Shown here one piece after another: positions 7,601 through 32,189 of a stretch of DNA of 35,589 bases. The stretch lies in the IMG/VR virus record IMGVR_UViG_3300050132_000506, positions 1-35,589 of that record; one strand, 5' to 3'. This stretch comes from a virus. Made by a program: the position numbers and the translations under genes. The notes beneath the pieces were generated by a model that saw only the letters and a list, made by a program, of their open reading frames with translations, was not told where the DNA came from and ran no database searches. Numbering within the stretch: the stretch's first letter is position 1; each line of letters starts with the position of its first letter.

Positions 7601-8305
7601 ATGGCACTCAGCCTCGCCCAGGCCCACCAACGCCGCGCTCGCGCCGCCATGGAGTCAGCCAAAACCGCGCCCCAGCAATCCATGCAAGGCGCCACCGCCT
7701 ACGAGCATCAACTCAACCAGTTGCTGCAGGACCGATTACGCCTAAAGCAGATCCAGTCCAACACCGGCAAGGCCGAACTCAAACTGGTGCTGCTGCCTGA
7801 ATACATCCCCTATATCGAAGGCGTGCTTGGTGCGGGCAATGGTGCTCAGGATGAAGTGCTGACCACCGTCATGGTCTGGCGGATTGATGCTGCGGACTAC
7901 AGCGGCGCACTAGACATCGCCACGTACGTTCTCAAACACAAACTGATCATGCCTGATCGCTTCGAACGCACCACCGGGTGCCTGGTCGCTGAAGAAATCG
8001 CCATCGCGGCCCTTAAAGCACAAAAGACCGGAGGCACTTTCAGTCGCGACATTCTCTACCGCACCGTTGAATTGACCGACGACCACGATATGCCTGACCA
8101 AGCTCGCGCCAAGCTGTACCTCGCCAGCGGTCGCGCCACATTACACGGCATCACCGCCGACATTCGCGGCCAAGCGGGTCAGTCGCAAGCCGGCATCGAC
8201 TTGCTCAAGCGCGCCATCGACCTGCACGACAGTTGCGGCGGCAAAAAAGACCTGGAGGGCGCAGAACGCCTTCTGAAAAAACACACTGCCGAGACCGGCG
8301 GTTAA
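7601..8305 (+). CDS. M: Terminase small/endonuclease subunit (P2 gpM family)
   Basis: The 234-residue protein has the gpM length (P2 about 247) and position directly after the capsid gene, starting 3 bases after its stop with GGCGAGGAG serving as ribosome site. The N-terminus is basic and helical (residues 1-50), followed by a helical body typical of this family. gpM recognises cos and, with gpP, makes the staggered ends during packaging. The C-terminus after residue 180 contains tetratricopeptide-like helices around GIDLLKRAIDLHDSCGG. No anomalies. Confidence 0.93.
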   Translation: MALSLAQAHQRRARAAMESAKTAPQQSMQGATAYEHQLNQLLQDRLRLKQIQSNTGKAELKLVLLPEYIPYIEGVLGAGNGAQDEVLTTVMVWRIDAADYSGALDIATYVLKHKLIMPDRFERTTGCLVAEEIAIAALKAQKTGGTFSRDILYRTVELTDDHDMPDQARAKLYLASGRATLHGITADIRGQAGQSQAGIDLLKRAIDLHDSCGGKKDLEGAERLLKKHTAETGG

Positions 8306-11327: not shown

Positions 11328-11857
11328 ACAAACCCGACAGCCTCCGCACCCATCTTCTGGCCGCCGTACGCGAACTCCAACACGACCCCGACCGCCTGCT
11401 GATCTTTATCGACAACGGCAACATCCGGTGCACCGCAGCCACCAGCCTGTCATTCGAATACACCTACGACCTGCAAATCATCCTCACCGACTTTGCCGGC
11501 CACCCCGACAGCGTCATGCTGCCGCTACTGGGCTGGGTGCGCGTCAACCAATCTGAACTGTTGGCCAACCTTGAAAAGTCAGCCACCGGCATCCGCTTTG
11601 AGGCAGACGTCCTCAACAACAGCAAAGTAGACCTGAGCCTCACACTGCCGCTCACCGAGCGCGTTATCGTCAAGCTACAGCCTGACGGTACCTACGACGT
11701 GCGCCACGCCGCAGAACCGCAATACACCGCCTACCAAGAAACTGGACTGGTACAAGTCTTCGCCCAGGGCGAACTACTAGCCGAGTGGCAGCCACCGCAA
11801 GCAGGCGACGCAATGGCGTTGACCACGCCGCATCCAAAGCCACCACGTCATGAGTGA
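11324..11857 (+). CDS. R: Tail completion protein (P2 gpR family)
   Basis: The 177-residue protein corresponds to P2 gpR (about 155), needed to finish the tail so it can join the head. The typical N-terminus (MNKPDSLRTHLLAAV, then DRLLIFIDNGNI) and the FEYTYDLQIILTDFAG block are visible. The ATG at 11324 overlaps the lysC stop; in-frame upstream codons have no ribosome site. The last 8 bases overlap S. No oddities. Confidence 0.92.
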   Translation: MNKPDSLRTHLLAAVRELQHDPDRLLIFIDNGNIRCTAATSLSFEYTYDLQIILTDFAGHPDSVMLPLLGWVRVNQSELLANLEKSATGIRFEADVLNNSKVDLSLTLPLTERVIVKLQPDGTYDVRHAAEPQYTAYQETGLVQVFAQGELLAEWQPPQAGDAMALTTPHPKPPRHE

Positions 11858-12305
11858 TCTAGAAGCGCTGGAAGACTGGGTCGGTGTCCTGCTCAACAAA
11901 CTTGAGCCCGCCGCCCGCAGCAACCTGGCCCGCTCCATCGCCCAACAGCTAAGGCGCAGCCAGCAGCAACGCATCACCGCCCAGCGCACGCCATCAGGCA
12001 GCAAGTTTGCGCCACGAAAACAGCGCAATTTGCGGGGTAAACAGGGGCGTATTAAGCACAAAGCGAAGATGTTTAAAAAGCTGCGCACTGCCCGGTACCT
12101 GAAGGCCAAGGGCGATGCGAACGCCATTACGGTTGGGTTTACTGGACGAATTGCTCGTATCGCAAGGGTGCACCAGTACGGCTTAAAAGACCGCCCTGAA
12201 AACGGTGCGCCTGATGTCCGATATTCGAAGCGGGAACAGCTGGGGTTTAGTGCCGCGGATCTGGAGATGGTCCGCGACAGTTTGTTGAAGCATTTGAGTG
12301 AGTAA
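11850..12305 (+). CDS. S: Tail completion/virion morphogenesis protein (P2 gpS family)
   Basis: The 151 residues match gpS length. Features are the N-terminal LEALEDWVGVLLNKLEP helix, a very basic middle (PRKQRNLRGKQGRIKHKAKMF is split around residues 55-75), the VGFTGRIARIARVHQYG block and the C-terminal LGFSAADLEMVRDSLLKHL found throughout the family. It is the last gene of the O operon. Beyond its stop the strand enters an oppositely oriented accessory gene after 20 bases with no clear terminator. Confidence 0.93.
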   Translation: MSDLEALEDWVGVLLNKLEPAARSNLARSIAQQLRRSQQQRITAQRTPSGSKFAPRKQRNLRGKQGRIKHKAKMFKKLRTARYLKAKGDANAITVGFTGRIARIARVHQYGLKDRPENGAPDVRYSKREQLGFSAADLEMVRDSLLKHLSE

Positions 12306-12325: not shown

Positions 12326-13252
12326 TTAGCCCTTCCCGCAAACACCAGGCTTGAAGTCATATTTTCCGTCTTTTAAAAGCGTCGCGACTATTATTTTCCC
12401 AAATGGTAGTAATGAGACCGAAACGCCTTCTTTTTTCTCTAATCCGCATTCTTCACCGTTGGTATGGAATGAAGAAAAAACTATTAGCCCTTGAGCCGTT
12501 TTCGTTAACTTATCCTTACCAAAAAAAATCTCTACAAAATTCAGAGACCCGAGGACAAGAAAAGCCAAGCCTATCGCCAAGGCATATTCGTTCAATAACT
12601 TCACCGGACGATGCGGCATTCGGGATGGGAAGCGGCGAAAAACAATCCTCACGGCTCGTGTGTGGTTTTCCAGCGCCTTGCCCACGTTGGTTCTTACCAC
12701 AACGTTAATGACTTGGGCAATGTACACCACAGTGCAGATTATTACCAATATATAATAGTAAATAAACAACGCGCCCACTCCAGTTAGCAGACGCTGTGCA
12801 GCCGGCAAATTTTCTGCCCGAGTGTGTGTCGTCTCAACGACGATCGCATCAGCATAGATACTCGCGATGATTGTTACGGCTATTGCCATGATACTGGCAG
12901 CCCACTTAAGCCAAGGGTAATGTTTCTTTATCAATGACACCAAGTCAAATTTTACTGCCAGAAGAGCAATAGGGGTTACTGTGACAATACCTAAAAGAGC
13001 CGTTCCGAGGGGCTTTACGGTATCGACTCCCAAATACATAAGGGCGGTTAGTCCATACAGCAGAAAAGAGCTTGACCATATCACGCAGCAGATTAAATCT
13101 TCTACTGTGGCAGATTTCAAATAGATGGCGGATCTTTTTGTCTGCCGCGCCAGCTTACGAAAATTATCCATATCATTGTAGTGATTATAAACACCGCTCA
13201 ACACTGGAATTAGAAAATAGATTATCAGTAAACAGGTAATCGGCTTTAACAT
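12326..13252 (-). CDS. Six-TM membrane protein, accessory gene (moron) between S and V
   Basis: I do not recognise the family. The 308-residue protein has hydrophobic segments near residues 5-22, 52-75, 83-101, 115-138, 156-186 and 222-243, then a 65-residue soluble tail containing three Cys (268... region EECG and the final VCGKG). The gene is visibly AT-richer than its neighbours and runs against the late operon. An AAGG ribosome site precedes the ATG, and an AT-rich upstream stretch with TATGAAT could be its own -10, so expression from the prophage is likely. P2 has nothing at this place. Membrane-bound prophage accessory genes are often superinfection-exclusion or abortive-infection factors, but that role is inference here. 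Confidence 0.75.
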   Translation of the reverse strand: MLKPITCLLIIYFLIPVLSGVYNHYNDMDNFRKLARQTKRSAIYLKSATVEDLICCVIWSSSFLLYGLTALMYLGVDTVKPLGTALLGIVTVTPIALLAVKFDLVSLIKKHYPWLKWAASIMAIAVTIIASIYADAIVVETTHTRAENLPAAQRLLTGVGALFIYYYILVIICTVVYIAQVINVVVRTNVGKALENHTRAVRIVFRRFPSRMPHRPVKLLNEYALAIGLAFLVLGSLNFVEIFFGKDKLTKTAQGLIVFSSFHTNGEECGLEKKEGVSVSLLPFGKIIVATLLKDGKYDFKPGVCGKG

Positions 13253-13366
13253 GTCGTTACCTTAGCGATAAATTCATATCTTTATCGGCCACACATTACA
13301 AAACTTAAAAAATCACCTGAGTTAGTACTGGCATCACGATTGGAGTTGAGCCGATTTCGGATAGAA

Positions 13367-13444
13367 TCAACTTGCAGCCTGCAACTTCTTCCACTCCCGA
13401 TCCACCGCCCTCTTCGCACTGGCCTTAGCTCGATAGGCTTTCAC
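13367..13444 (-). pseudogene. Relic of a gene D C-terminus
   Basis: Read on the minus strand, 25 codons from 13444 down to a TGA at 13367-13369 encode a peptide whose core SAKRAVDREWKKL matches the C-terminus of gpD in this window (TAKRAVDREQRKL) at equal spacing, with a Tyr six residues ahead in both. A TAG lies in frame directly upstream, so it is not an intact gene. It points the same way as the six-TM gene that follows it, suggesting that the accessory gene arrived with the end of a D gene. Confidence 0.7.
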
Positions 13445-13464
13445 CTAGGCCGGCGCAGGGTTCG

Positions 13465-13486
13465 TTGTAGCCCTGCCCACTACAAC
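13465..13486. promoter_or_regulatory. Ogr/Delta-type late activator site upstream of V
   Basis: TTGTAG (13465-13470) and CTACAA (13480-13485) form a perfect 6-bp inverted repeat; TGTA and TACA are 11 bases apart, as in the sites upstream of O and FI. Its centre is only about 56 bases from the V start codon. CAATAT at 13519-13524 is a possible -10. Confidence 0.75.
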
Positions 13487-13530
13487 CCTATCTAGCTGCA
13501 CCCCGCACGCGCGAACGCCAATATGGCGGC

Positions 13531-14133
13531 ATGAACGATTTCGCCGCTTTAGCCCGCATGCTCGAAAATTTGATCCGCTTCGGAACCATCGCCGAAGTCC
13601 AGATGAAACCGCCCCGTGTCCGCGTTAAAACCGGCGAGTTGCTTACCGGCTGGCTGCCTTGGCTGGCATTACGCGCCGGTGCAGATGTCGACTGGGACCC
13701 GCCGACTGTTGATGAGCAGGTCATCTTGCTAAGTCCCTCCGGCCAACTGGCTAACGGTGTCGTTATCACTGGTATTTACTGCGATGCGATACCTGCCAAC
13801 GGCGACCGTGCCGGCTTGCACCGCCGCACCTATCGCGACGGTACGGTTATCGAATACGACAGCGTTGCGCATCATCTGAGCGCGGTCCTGGTTGAAGGCG
13901 GTACTACCGATCTAATCAGTAAGGGCGGGATTCACATTGTGGGTTCGATCACCCATGAGGGGGATTACACCCAGCAGGGGAATTTCACTCAAACAGGCAG
14001 TTACGACCAAACCGGCGACCAAAATATCAGCGGCTCTGTTACCGCTTCCGCCGACGTGATTGCTGCGGGAGTAAGTTTGGTTGGCCACCTCCACGTCGGC
14101 AACCTTGGTGCCCCAACGAGCCCACCGCTATGA
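13531..14133 (+). CDS. V: Baseplate assembly protein / tail spike (P2 gpV family)
   Basis: The 200-residue protein is the P2 gpV homologue (about 211 residues), the trimeric membrane-piercing spike under the baseplate. The N-terminal OB-type domain aligns (LARMLENLIRFGTIAEV; WLPWLALRAGADVDWDPPTVDEQVILLSPSG; GVVITGIY). The C-terminal third is a beta-helix of short repeats (THEGDYTQQGNFTQTGSYDQ), ending near the apex motif VGHLHVG, whose HxH can hold iron in P2. The ATG at 13531 has no ribosome site ahead of it. It starts the V-W-J-I-H-G operon. Confidence 0.95.
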   Translation: MNDFAALARMLENLIRFGTIAEVQMKPPRVRVKTGELLTGWLPWLALRAGADVDWDPPTVDEQVILLSPSGQLANGVVITGIYCDAIPANGDRAGLHRRTYRDGTVIEYDSVAHHLSAVLVEGGTTDLISKGGIHIVGSITHEGDYTQQGNFTQTGSYDQTGDQNISGSVTASADVIAAGVSLVGHLHVGNLGAPTSPPL

Positions 14134-24738: not shown

Positions 24739-25179
24739 ATGATGCTTGCCTTGGGCATGTTTGTATTCGGCCTGCACACCGCCGCGTATCAGGAAATGCA
24801 GCGCCAGACAGACTGGCGTCACCCCAGCAGTAACCGTATTGGTGTGCAGCCGGCGCGGCAGTTTGTTGGGTGTGGTGAGGATGCGATTACGCTGCCTGGC
24901 TTGATCCTGCCGGAACTCGCTGGCACAGCCCTCAGCCTTGATGCGCTTCGCCTGATGGCCAACACCGGCAAGGCGTGGCCCATGGTTGAGGGGAGTGGTC
25001 GAATTTACGGCCTGTGGGTGATCGAAAGCCTGAGCGAAACCAAGACATTGTTTTTTCGCGACGGCACACCACGCCGGATCGAATTTACCCTGAACCTGAA
25101 ACGCATAGACGATAACAGCCTCGACCTGCTGGGGGCGGCGACCAATGTTGGAGTGAGTCTGCTCAGGGGATTGCTGTGA
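24739..25179 (+). CDS. U: Tail protein U (P2 gpU family)
   Basis: The 146 residues correspond to gpU (about 159), the tail terminator-like or hub-associated protein. Typical stretches are LGMFVFGLHTAAYQEMQRQTD and GRIYGLWVIESLSETKTLFF. CAGGAG before the tandem ATGs at 24739/24742 is the ribosome site. It follows T by 5 bases and its stop overlaps the GTG of D. Confidence 0.95.
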   Translation: MMLALGMFVFGLHTAAYQEMQRQTDWRHPSSNRIGVQPARQFVGCGEDAITLPGLILPELAGTALSLDALRLMANTGKAWPMVEGSGRIYGLWVIESLSETKTLFFRDGTPRRIEFTLNLKRIDDNSLDLLGAATNVGVSLLRGLL

Positions 25180-26435
25180 TCGAGGCCGGCATCGCAAGCG
25201 GGACGGGATACCTGCAGAACGGCGTTGATCGCTATAAACGTGATGCCGCTTACCCTGTGCCGGCTTACCGCCTGACGGTGGACGGTAAGGACATCGCCCA
25301 GTTGATCAGTGGACGGTTGATGAGCCTGGAACTGACTGACAACCGAGGATTGGAGGCCGATCAGCTGAGTATTACGCTGAGCGACCATGACGGCCTGTTG
25401 GCAATACCTCCTACCGGTGCAGTGGTTCGGCTGTGGCTCGGCTGGAGCAATACCGGCCTGGTAGATAAGGGCACGTACACCGTTGATGAGACCGAACACA
25501 GTGGCGTGCCGGACGTGTTGAGCATTCGCGCTCGATCTGCAGATCTGCGCAAAGGGTTGAAGACCAAGCGCGAGCGCAGCTGGAGCAAGACCACACTGGG
25601 TGACGTAATGCGCGATGTCGCGGTGGGCAATGGACTCAAGGCAACCATTGCCGAAGCGCTGGGCGCTGCGAGCATTCTGCAGCTTGACCAGGCTAACGAG
25701 TCTGACGCCAACCTGATCAGCCGTTTGGGTGAGGAATTCGACGCAGTGACCAGCGTTAAGGCAGGGTGCTTACTGTGCATCCCTGCGGGCGGCGGCAAGA
25801 GCGCCAGCGGCATGAACCTACCGCACATCACGCTGACCCGCGCCGATGGTGACCAGCACCGTTACCTACAGGCTGACCGCGACAGCTACGACGGAGTGCG
25901 CGCTTATTTCTACGATGTGAACAGTGCCAAAAAACAGGAGGCCGTTGCCGGTGGCGGAGACAACCTCAAAGATCTGCGACACACCTACAGCGACCAACAG
26001 TCCGCGCTACGCGCCGCCCGAGCAGAGTTCCGGCGCCTGCAACGCGGCAGCGCCACCCTCAGCTACGCCCTGGCCATGGGCAGGCCGGATCTGATACCCG
26101 AACTGACGTACACGCTTCAGGGCGTGAAGGCGGAAATCGACGAGATCATCTGGTACGGCGGAAATGTACAGCACAGCCTCAGCGCAGACGGCGGCTACAC
26201 CGTGAGCCTGGAGCTGGAGAGTAAGTTGCCCGAGGATGGGGTTGAAGACCTCGTGGAGGAAAGCGAGGGGGGTTACACGGGGATCATCGCGTACTACCGC
26301 GATCAGAAAACAGGAAAGGAAAAGACGGCGACTGCTGGGGATCAGACCAAGCCGAGACGGTTGAAGTGGTTGTATTCAAACCAGCATACGGCGAAACGGG
26401 CAGTGGATCGAGAACAAAGAAAACTGGGCAGTTAA
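25176..26435 (+). CDS. D: Baseplate hub / late control protein D (P2 gpD family)
   Basis: The 419-residue protein (P2 gpD about 387) is the hub homologous to T4 gp27. Features are the N-terminal PAYRLTVDGKDIAQLISGRL, the ANLISRLGEEFDAV block and the basic C-terminus TAKRAVDREQRKL, the same end that survives as a relic at 13367-13444. The start is GTG at 25176 overlapping the U stop (GTGA). The TAA ends at 26435, immediately against the stop codon of the opposite-strand gene, with no room for a terminator. Confidence 0.95.
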   Translation: MIEAGIASGTGYLQNGVDRYKRDAAYPVPAYRLTVDGKDIAQLISGRLMSLELTDNRGLEADQLSITLSDHDGLLAIPPTGAVVRLWLGWSNTGLVDKGTYTVDETEHSGVPDVLSIRARSADLRKGLKTKRERSWSKTTLGDVMRDVAVGNGLKATIAEALGAASILQLDQANESDANLISRLGEEFDAVTSVKAGCLLCIPAGGGKSASGMNLPHITLTRADGDQHRYLQADRDSYDGVRAYFYDVNSAKKQEAVAGGGDNLKDLRHTYSDQQSALRAARAEFRRLQRGSATLSYALAMGRPDLIPELTYTLQGVKAEIDEIIWYGGNVQHSLSADGGYTVSLELESKLPEDGVEDLVEESEGGYTGIIAYYRDQKTGKEKTATAGDQTKPRRLKWLYSNQHTAKRAVDREQRKLGS

Positions 26436-27698
26436 CTACGCACCTCCAGTTTTTTTGTCGCACTCCTCTCTCAAAGAAGGGTCACAAAAAAGCGAAACAG
26501 CCCTAAACACAACGTAAGACATAATAGCGATAGACGTCCAAGTAATTGCCACCCACGGCACAGCTTCCATCTCAGAATAATAAAAAAACATACCAAGTGC
26601 CACACCGAAGGAAACAAGCACAACCAGACCGACCACTTCTAGCAATATAGCCTGATACCGATATCTACTACGAAGCAATTTGTAAGGCGCATCGAACTTT
26701 AACTTTACCGCATTATGCTTCCCTTTAATCAAATCCCATTCCGCGGTCATCTCAAGAAAAATAGTGGACAGAGTATTCCTTTGATTCAATATCAAAAACA
26801 ACATGAAAATTGCAAAGACAAGCGAGCCCACAAGAATGAAAAAATTCTTTAAAGAAAACCCGCCAACCACTTCCATTTGGCCGCACACAACAACCAATGC
26901 GACTGGAACCGCAAGAAGCTGATTCTGTATATCAGAAAAAACCTTATTAATTTTAGACAGTGCTTCAAACTTACTTTTTTCGACCTCTGCCTTTATTTTC
27001 TGGAACGAAAACTCAGAAACATATAACTGATAGCTGGATGATACACGCCGCGCAAACTCTTCAAACCTAGACATAATCAGGCCAACGTGAAACTTTTCGT
27101 CCCCAACCTCCTTCTTCATCTCCAGAAGTATCGATTTAACAATGGTACGCTTCTGCTCCACGTGAGCTTCTGTCTTTATATACTCTAGGGCAAAACCCGC
27201 GACTCCACTCAGGCAAGACATTTCCTCACGACTATATTCAAGGAACAGCTCAATTTTTTCCCCATGAAAGAAAATAAGCTTCGCAGCGCCTTTAGGCACA
27301 ACGTGATCAGCTAACGGAGGAGAAAATAACCCTATCAATGTAACAGCATCAATATACGAACGAACTACTTGAGGCGCGCTATCATAATCACCATCAAACA
27401 AATAGTCGATATCAGCCAAATAAAATTTAGCAGGCACAGACTGACGGCGCTGACTAGATGCAAGTAAATCATCTAACGAGAAAGCAAAAAAAGCATTCTG
27501 CTCCAGAGGAGGCATAAAAAACACCTCTCTGTTAGTAGGAGACGAACTTTGGAGCATTCCAAACCGCTCCAACTTCGTAGAGGCTTCTTCAAATACTTCT
27601 TCGGGAAGACTACCCCTCAAACGGCCTTGCTCGAGCGTGCGGTTTTCCAGCAGTTTGTAAACTGCGACAGCTAGCTCAATCTTCGTCGTTGGCAGCAT
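26436..27698 (-). CDS. Four-TM membrane protein, partner of the NdpA-like protein
   Basis: I do not recognise the family. The 420-residue protein has a soluble N-terminal half (about 255 residues; the first 60 could be a winged helix) and hydrophobic segments near 259-280, 284-305, 350-374 and 382-403, with a basic helix before the first. The last 18 residues are charged and carry two Cys. ATG at 27698 is chosen because the next in-frame start upstream is a TTG at 27731 further into the preceding gene; it overlaps that gene by 23 bases, so translation is likely coupled. The gene is AT-rich. As a pair with a DNA-binding protein this looks like a sensor/membrane-effector module, an inference. 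Confidence 0.72.
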   Translation of the reverse strand: MLPTTKIELAVAVYKLLENRTLEQGRLRGSLPEEVFEEASTKLERFGMLQSSSPTNREVFFMPPLEQNAFFAFSLDDLLASSQRRQSVPAKFYLADIDYLFDGDYDSAPQVVRSYIDAVTLIGLFSPPLADHVVPKGAAKLIFFHGEKIELFLEYSREEMSCLSGVAGFALEYIKTEAHVEQKRTIVKSILLEMKKEVGDEKFHVGLIMSRFEEFARRVSSSYQLYVSEFSFQKIKAEVEKSKFEALSKINKVFSDIQNQLLAVPVALVVVCGQMEVVGGFSLKNFFILVGSLVFAIFMLFLILNQRNTLSTIFLEMTAEWDLIKGKHNAVKLKFDAPYKLLRSRYRYQAILLEVVGLVVLVSFGVALGMFFYYSEMEAVPWVAITWTSIAIMSYVVFRAVSLFCDPSLREECDKKTGGA

Positions 27699-28719
27699 TT
27701 TGAGCACCGAGAGCCTTATCCATCTCAGCAAGCAAATCTGCTGGAGGATTCATTATAACTAAACCTTGCAACTCCGGATCATAGTAGACAGTTTCATTCC
27801 GAAGATCATTAACATCAAAGCTTACACTAACACTACCAAACCGTCTACTAACCCTCATTAACTTTTTGTAAGTAGCAGGATTTGGTGAAAAAACTTCGCT
27901 CACCTCGTACTCATTATCTCTTATGAAATTTATGAACGACTCAGGAGCTTGATCATTTATGATTGCCGACAACGCCACCAAATTTACTGGCTCATCATTG
28001 GCTTTCTTTTCAACACAATGAGCATATAGACGATCAGTTGCGACTTGCCTTCTCAGTGGCTCCCAACCCTCACTTTCAAAATAATCGTTCAGCGCTGCAA
28101 CCGTCACCTCTGTATTGTGTCGAGCATCAGTGTATTCAGTACACGCCAATGCTACTCGAAAATACTTAGTGACATCCGCATCAGCCGCCCGTCTTTTTAT
28201 AAACGAAAGATATGGCTGCTCATTATTTTGCCACTTTTGAATATCAATCCGTGCTGCCTCGTACAAATGACTAACGTCAAATGACAAGGAGTCATTCAAA
28301 TCAAGGGTGGCTTCATCGATGCCTACACCTTCCTTAAGCTTCAACATCGCTATAAGAAGCCAATCTCTGCCCTGATTATGATATCGAACAAAAAGCGGCC
28401 AGGTCGTTGTAGCCATCCACTGCTCTTGCATAGGAACAGATATCAGAGAACACACGCCTCGACTAAATTCGACGAGATCTAATTCCTGATCGATATATTT
28501 CTTCATAAGAACAGGAAACTGATGAATTAACGCGTTATCACCAAATGTCCCATACCCGTTACTTAGTCGGGTGTAAAGGGTAAGCACTTCGCCCCCCAAG
28601 GTATCAAGGCGCGCATCAATAGGCAGTATCACATCACGCGGCTTTATTGTTACCGCACCATCACCGTTAGTTTCACGAGCCTTGAGAACCCCATGAATAA
28701 TCGACTCAGTAATTTCCAT
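27676..28719 (-). CDS. NdpA/YejK-like nucleoid-associated protein (NA37 family)
   Basis: The 347-residue protein resembles E. coli YejK (335 residues) along its length: LYTRLSNGYGTFGDN near residue 48, FSRGVCSLI, the RIDIQKWQNNEQPYLSFIKRR block, and AALNDYFES, then a C-terminal VYYDPELQGLVI strand. NA37 proteins bind DNA on the nucleoid. Chromosomal yejK is normally elsewhere; here it is an AT-rich accessory gene in the D-to-immunity gap, followed by a membrane protein with overlap. No strong ribosome site is visible. An AT-rich upstream region (28740-28790) may hold its promoter. A role in recognising foreign or replicating DNA is plausible but inferred. Confidence 0.8.
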   Translation of the reverse strand: MEITESIIHGVLKARETNGDGAVTIKPRDVILPIDARLDTLGGEVLTLYTRLSNGYGTFGDNALIHQFPVLMKKYIDQELDLVEFSRGVCSLISVPMQEQWMATTTWPLFVRYHNQGRDWLLIAMLKLKEGVGIDEATLDLNDSLSFDVSHLYEAARIDIQKWQNNEQPYLSFIKRRAADADVTKYFRVALACTEYTDARHNTEVTVAALNDYFESEGWEPLRRQVATDRLYAHCVEKKANDEPVNLVALSAIINDQAPESFINFIRDNEYEVSEVFSPNPATYKKLMRVSRRFGSVSVSFDVNDLRNETVYYDPELQGLVIMNPPADLLAEMDKALGAQNAANDED

Positions 28720-31904: not shown

Positions 31905-32189
31905 ATGAGCACCTACAAGCTGATCTGCCCCCACTGCCACCGAGGTATGCGAGTCCGCACCAGCGACGGTGTGCATATTTTCCTGCGGGTGTCGTACCTG
32001 CAATGCACCAACGTGGCGTGTGGCTGGTCGGTACGTGCCGAGTTTCAAATGACCCATGAAATGTCCCCCAGCGGGATGCCCAACCCTGAGGTCAAGCTGC
32101 CTATCGCTGACAGCATGCTACGCCGCGCCGCGATGAGGTCGCCGACTGACCAGCTGGACCTGATTGATCAATTGGAGCAAGCACAATGA
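31905..32189 (+). CDS. ogr: Ogr/Delta-like late transcription activator
   Basis: The 94-residue protein has Cys8-x2-Cys11-x22-Cys34-x4-Cys39, the exact spacing of the zinc-binding motif of P2 Ogr and P4 Delta, with the basic MRVRTS stretch and QCTNVACGWS in between. Ogr binds dyads upstream of late promoters and recruits RNA polymerase. Three such dyads are present upstream of O, V and FI. P2 places ogr after D, next to int; here it is in the early operon, so late genes will follow early transcription directly. The C-terminus after residue 50 is longer than in P2 Ogr (72 residues). Confidence 0.88.
   Translation: MSTYKLICPHCHRGMRVRTSDGVHIFLRVSYLQCTNVACGWSVRAEFQMTHEMSPSGMPNPEVKLPIADSMLRRAAMRSPTDQLDLIDQLEQAQ

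Follow-up and report, generated by a model that had tools for sequence, protein, structure and literature searches.

A gene D tail beside an antisense membrane-protein gene in the S-V junction of a P2-like Pseudomonas phage: a candidate case of cargo moved between slots

In P2-like phages, acquired genes have been described at the TO-region, Z/fun and orf30 (PMC3091744). The locus analyzed here is most similar to P2 orf30 and these other acquired loci, the likeness being the presence of cargo between genes S and V. It differs from the orf30-type loci in that its cargo bears part of structural gene D, a gene of another locus, and this fragment would mark the cargo's former address. S-V as a locus for acquired genes was already known; a D tail attached to the cargo was not seen in the other S-V loci examined.

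A second likeness is to the cargo that P2-like phages of Pseudomonas carry downstream of D, with OQ658368, L244 and L104 as examples. In a subset of these phages the first codirectional gene begins 4-161 bp past the D stop (relatives such as L089, L090, L094, L098, L104, L123, L144, L148 and L162), compared with 114 bp in the unit described here. In this subset of D-site cargos, a D tail is ordinarily followed by a spacer and a codirectional gene. By contrast, the present unit lies in S-V, is antisense and has kept the D tail alone. The third comparison is with the prophage membrane-bound superinfection-exclusion morons as a general class, which resemble the S-V gene in being stand-alone, small multi-TM proteins in a cargo slot, although no sequence or structural relation between its product and the characterized exclusion proteins was found.

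The S-V junction and its cargo

Profile searches of the window, by which we mean the whole 35,589-nt stretch of DNA, identified genes R, S, V and D and an ogr-like gene. Judging by this gene content, the window covers most of the genome of a P2-like Pseudomonas phage, and its S-V region resembles that of the Citexvirus phages of P. aeruginosa. The S-V interval is 1225 bp and contains one antisense ORF and the proposed relic of gene D. The features relevant to the analysis are as follows.

11850-12305, plus strand: gene S (tail completion; PF05069, E 4e-38), left border of the slot
12326-13252, minus strand: six-TM cargo gene, a 308-aa ORF containing six hydrophobic segments and a C-terminal domain with conserved Cys269 and Cys305
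13253-13366, minus strand: spacer from the relic stop to the six-TM start, 114 bp, 39% GC
13367-13444, minus strand: gene D 3'-end relic, frame GTG...TGA, 25 codons, with a homologous core at 13388-13435 that extends towards the stop
13465-13485, no strand assigned: TTGTA-N11-TACAA dyad (TTGTAGCCCTGCCCACTACAA), which forms the right border of the slot and is the putative Ogr site for late promoter PV
13531-14133, plus strand: gene V (baseplate spike; PF04717, E 9e-16)
25176-26435, plus strand: the phage's own gene D (PF05954, phrog_52), whose tail shares 56% identity with the relic across the 48-nt core
31905-32189, plus strand: ogr-like activator gene (PF04606, E 1e-14), whose product would act on the PV site

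Among 80 relatives, the distance between S and V was 61-69 bp in 17, which we considered empty, and 536-2149 bp in the 63 that held cargo. The cargo was a single gene as a rule and came from many unrelated families, including Shedu SduA, PD-T7-4, FRG/PDC-S15 and HEPN-Toprim proteins. Individual junctions of this kind were L024 (Shedu SduA), L027 (with its family, PD-T7-4), L055, L067 and L075 (HEPN/Toprim). Judged by these contents, the S-V junction is a small defense slot in the P2-like phages of Pseudomonas. The window also showed the features of an orf30-type slot, as its nonessential S-V gene was absent or replaced in relatives and its V side was bordered by a putative Ogr-type PV site. 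The dyad before V in the window has the form TGT-N13-ACA, versus the P2 late-promoter consensus of TGT-N12-ACA (PMC3931495), and a dyad-like TGTA...TACAA stretch was also visible just 5' of V in relatives. The dyad is compatible with a putative Ogr-dependent PV promoter.

A preliminary description of this DNA had drawn attention to the inverted orientation of the cargo. The six-TM gene is indeed antisense; however, the cargo of the 63 filled slots was antisense in 37, sense in 24 and mixed in two, so that the inverted orientation is the commonest filled state and nothing special. No D tail was present in any of the 63 other filled junctions examined. It is therefore the D tail, and not the slot or the orientation, that sets the window apart from the other S-V loci.

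Identity of the gene D relic

The relic frame, 13367-13444 on the minus strand, translates as VKAYRAKASAKRAVDREWKKLQAAS followed by a stop, and sits 114 bp upstream of the six-TM ATG on the same strand. The window thus contains a D 3' end in frame to its stop, directly upstream of and codirectional with a cargo gene. The stop-ended frame of 25 codons reported in the preliminary description was confirmed, with homology to gpD over approximately 16-20 of the codons (the Y...WK core at 13388-13435, continuing towards the stop). The leading VKA, or first two to three codons, and all of the sequence 5' of about 13435 were not gpD-like. The GC content of the relic was phage-like (56%), while that of the six-TM gene (44%) and the spacer (39%) was cargo-like.

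With only 16-20 homologous codons, the relic might have been a chance peptide match, or the end of an unrelated cargo gene with a similar basic helix, and the database statistics called for in the preliminary description led us to reject both possibilities. A tblastn search of the relic peptide against 161 loci returned, besides the relic itself, gpD C-termini for all of the matches listed (best E 2e-9), and these C-termini typically read ...RLRWLYASEKTAKRAVDREWKKLQ... At the nucleotide level, blastn of positions 13253-13530 against 50,697 phage records (2.3 Gb) matched 37 of 39 nt at the D 3' end of the P. aeruginosa phage OQ658368 (E 8e-8), in a gene annotated as "tail protein". A degenerate pattern for KASAKRAVDREWK, searched in all IMG/VR contigs (2.9 million viral) and in 84,980 GTDB genomes, was found at 23 places (22 in IMG/VR and one in GTDB), every one of them a gpD C-terminus, with the matches in L175 and L186 truncated by contig ends. 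Aligned without gaps, the 48-nt core scored 41/48 at best against a D tail; three shuffled copies, compared at 5.5 million positions, each reached 29/48. Together, these comparisons confirmed the relic as a true gene D 3' end.

The D gene from which the relic derives appears not to be that of the window phage. Over the 48-nt core the relic was 85% identical to the D genes of L187 and L162, the best donors, versus 56% to the phage's own D, which indicated that the relic came from the D gene of another phage. This bears on the possibility that the phage inverted or duplicated its own D together with the adjacent cargo. That explanation has the attraction of a D gene with cargo alongside in the same genome, but the difference in identity argues for transfer between phages, or a later replacement of D, rather than a simple in-genome inversion. 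Moreover, the cargo now beside D is convergent with D and unrelated to the six-TM gene. We consider an intragenomic origin to be very improbable, and the suggestion that the present D-adjacent cargo of this phage was the source fails because that cargo points towards D.

D-site homologues and the probable origin of the cargo block

If the six-TM gene was formerly D-adjacent cargo, its relatives might be expected beside D in other phages, a check that the preliminary description had proposed. The only other phage-borne members of the family that we found, in L244, L211 and L206, lay without exception downstream of D and in the same orientation. L244 is an intact IMG/VR phage contig (FI-FII-T-U-D) in which D is followed by a 228-aa gene and then the six-TM gene. 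In the L211 prophage the order is D, a cargo gene, a second D tail (93 aa), further cargo and finally a six-TM gene that shares 92% identity with its L244 counterpart. In the L206 prophage remnant, a 74-bp gap separates a decayed D tail from a split six-TM gene; no further tail gene was found in the 19 kb covered. The expectation of a six-TM homologue next to D was thus borne out at the level of the family, with partial D tails in L211 and L206 as well, but not for a close relative: the D-adjacent proteins were only 23-26% identical to that of the window and formed one well-supported clade, together with a fourth, split copy in L220. The closest relative of the window protein, L233 (34%), with which it paired with full support in the tree, was chromosomal with no phage genes around it. 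The exact gene of the window was therefore not seen beside D.

Extra partial D 3' ends were located past a full D, after a cargo gene, at L211:7559-7838 (93 aa) and L104:8463-8553 (30 aa, decayed), and look like scars left when the cargo beside D was turned over. Proteins with an FRG domain (PF08867) occurred in both slots, antisense in S-V (L011, L033 and L035) and codirectional after D (L144, L146 and L108).

Based on the D-site geometry, the extra D tails of L211 and L104 and the presence of FRG proteins in both slots, the simplest history is that of one moved block of D tail plus cargo, and we give this reading a probability of about two in three. The source would have been the region just past gene D in another P2-like phage, and the block would have consisted of the last 16-20 D codons with their stop, the 114-bp spacer and the codirectional six-TM gene. 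It would have been inserted in antisense orientation by illegitimate recombination, in a co-infected cell or a polylysogen, with the S stop on one side and the Ogr-dependent PV promoter on the other, in a Citexvirus-like phage whose S-V junction acts as a single-gene cargo slot. The D tail would have stayed behind as a non-functional scar. We infer that relic and cargo arrived together in a single step. The preliminary proposal of a block moved from a D-adjacent site into S-V thus retains its support from the relic and the D-adjacent homologues, but with a donor D from another phage.

Several findings go against a block transfer, namely the separate clade of the D-adjacent homologues, the chromosomal setting of the window gene's nearest relative, the lack of similarity between the spacer (13253-13366) and D-downstream DNA in the loci compared, and the absence of a D tail from the other S-V junctions examined. 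The alternative is that two independent events occurred, in which illegitimate recombination between phages left a stray D 3' end and a six-TM gene from a host chromosome landed separately. The chromosomal location of the nearest relative and the unmatched spacer are consistent with such a history, as is the finding that the unit of relic plus six-TM gene was in no second phage. However, two rare events within one slot of ~1.1 kb would have had to reproduce the order, orientation and spacing seen at the D sites of L206, L211 and L244, and we consider this history unlikely, although it is the most serious competitor to the transfer of one block.

As for how such blocks might arise, we speculate, at somewhat less than even odds, that recombination within the 3' end of D swaps the cargo at the D site. 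New cargo would then lie directly after D, ahead of the old D tail and the old cargo, as in L211 and L104, and units of D tail plus cargo could be pasted into S-V. The D tail would in that case serve as a marker by which the movement of cargo between hotspots can be tracked.

How single defense or conversion genes enter the few slots of temperate phages that tolerate them can seldom be seen, since the junctions leave no trace. A scar from a structural gene reveals the former address of the cargo, and the one described here would be a fossil indicating that passenger genes are transferable between parking places in P2-like phages. A search for orphan D tails makes the traffic of cargo from slot to slot and from phage to phage testable.

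The six-TM protein family and its possible role

Whole-genome searches of roughly 770 Pseudomonadaceae genomes identified 27 distant six-TM homologues, the majority of which were in host DNA without P2 genes. No close relatives were found in the scan of INPHARED, PLSDB, IMG/VR and GTDB, and scans of IMG/VR with the L233, L206 and L208 proteins produced no further members. The gene had no match above cut-off to a Pfam, NCBIfam, PADLOC, PHROGs or PDB family. Judged by these homologies, it belongs to an uncurated Pseudomonas membrane-protein family common to chromosomes and P2-like phages, to which the present finding points.

In the family alignment, Cys269 and Cys305 of the C-terminal domain were nearly invariant. 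The charge distribution was positive-inside in three of five loops in most of 16 family members, which would imply a periplasmic C-terminus. The predicted fold was of low confidence (mean pLDDT 47). The product would accordingly stand alone in the inner membrane, with a C-terminal domain that lies in the periplasm and carries a Cys pair. Expression in the lysogen would be from a promoter of its own. A promoter scan gave results no better than for shuffled sequences.

The location in a slot for defense genes, the stand-alone gene, the predicted periplasmic C-terminus and the conserved Cys pair together suggest that the six-TM protein may be a membrane exclusion or defense moron, acting in superinfection exclusion or defense. 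PADLOC, Pfam, NCBIfam and PDB searches gave no match above cut-off to a known defense or exclusion family. A role as the immunity partner of a toxin was also considered and rejected, as there was no obvious recurring partner among the neighbors listed around the homologues.

Some minor observations were made on the cargo of both sites. The FRG protein of L035 also matches PDC-S15. L244 has, between the 228-aa gene and the six-TM gene (7619-7810, minus strand), a 63-aa antisense ORF resembling the C-terminus of a phage repressor, which is perhaps another recombination scar. The cargo beside the window phage's own D, at 26436-28719, is a convergent pair of genes, the product of one being 431 aa long (phrog_5023) and that of the other a nucleoid-associated protein of NA37/NdpA-like type. 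A similar pair, of a TM protein and a protein of ~340-380 aa, recurs after D in L083, L085, L111, L139 and L155, and pairs of this type may represent a two-gene system.
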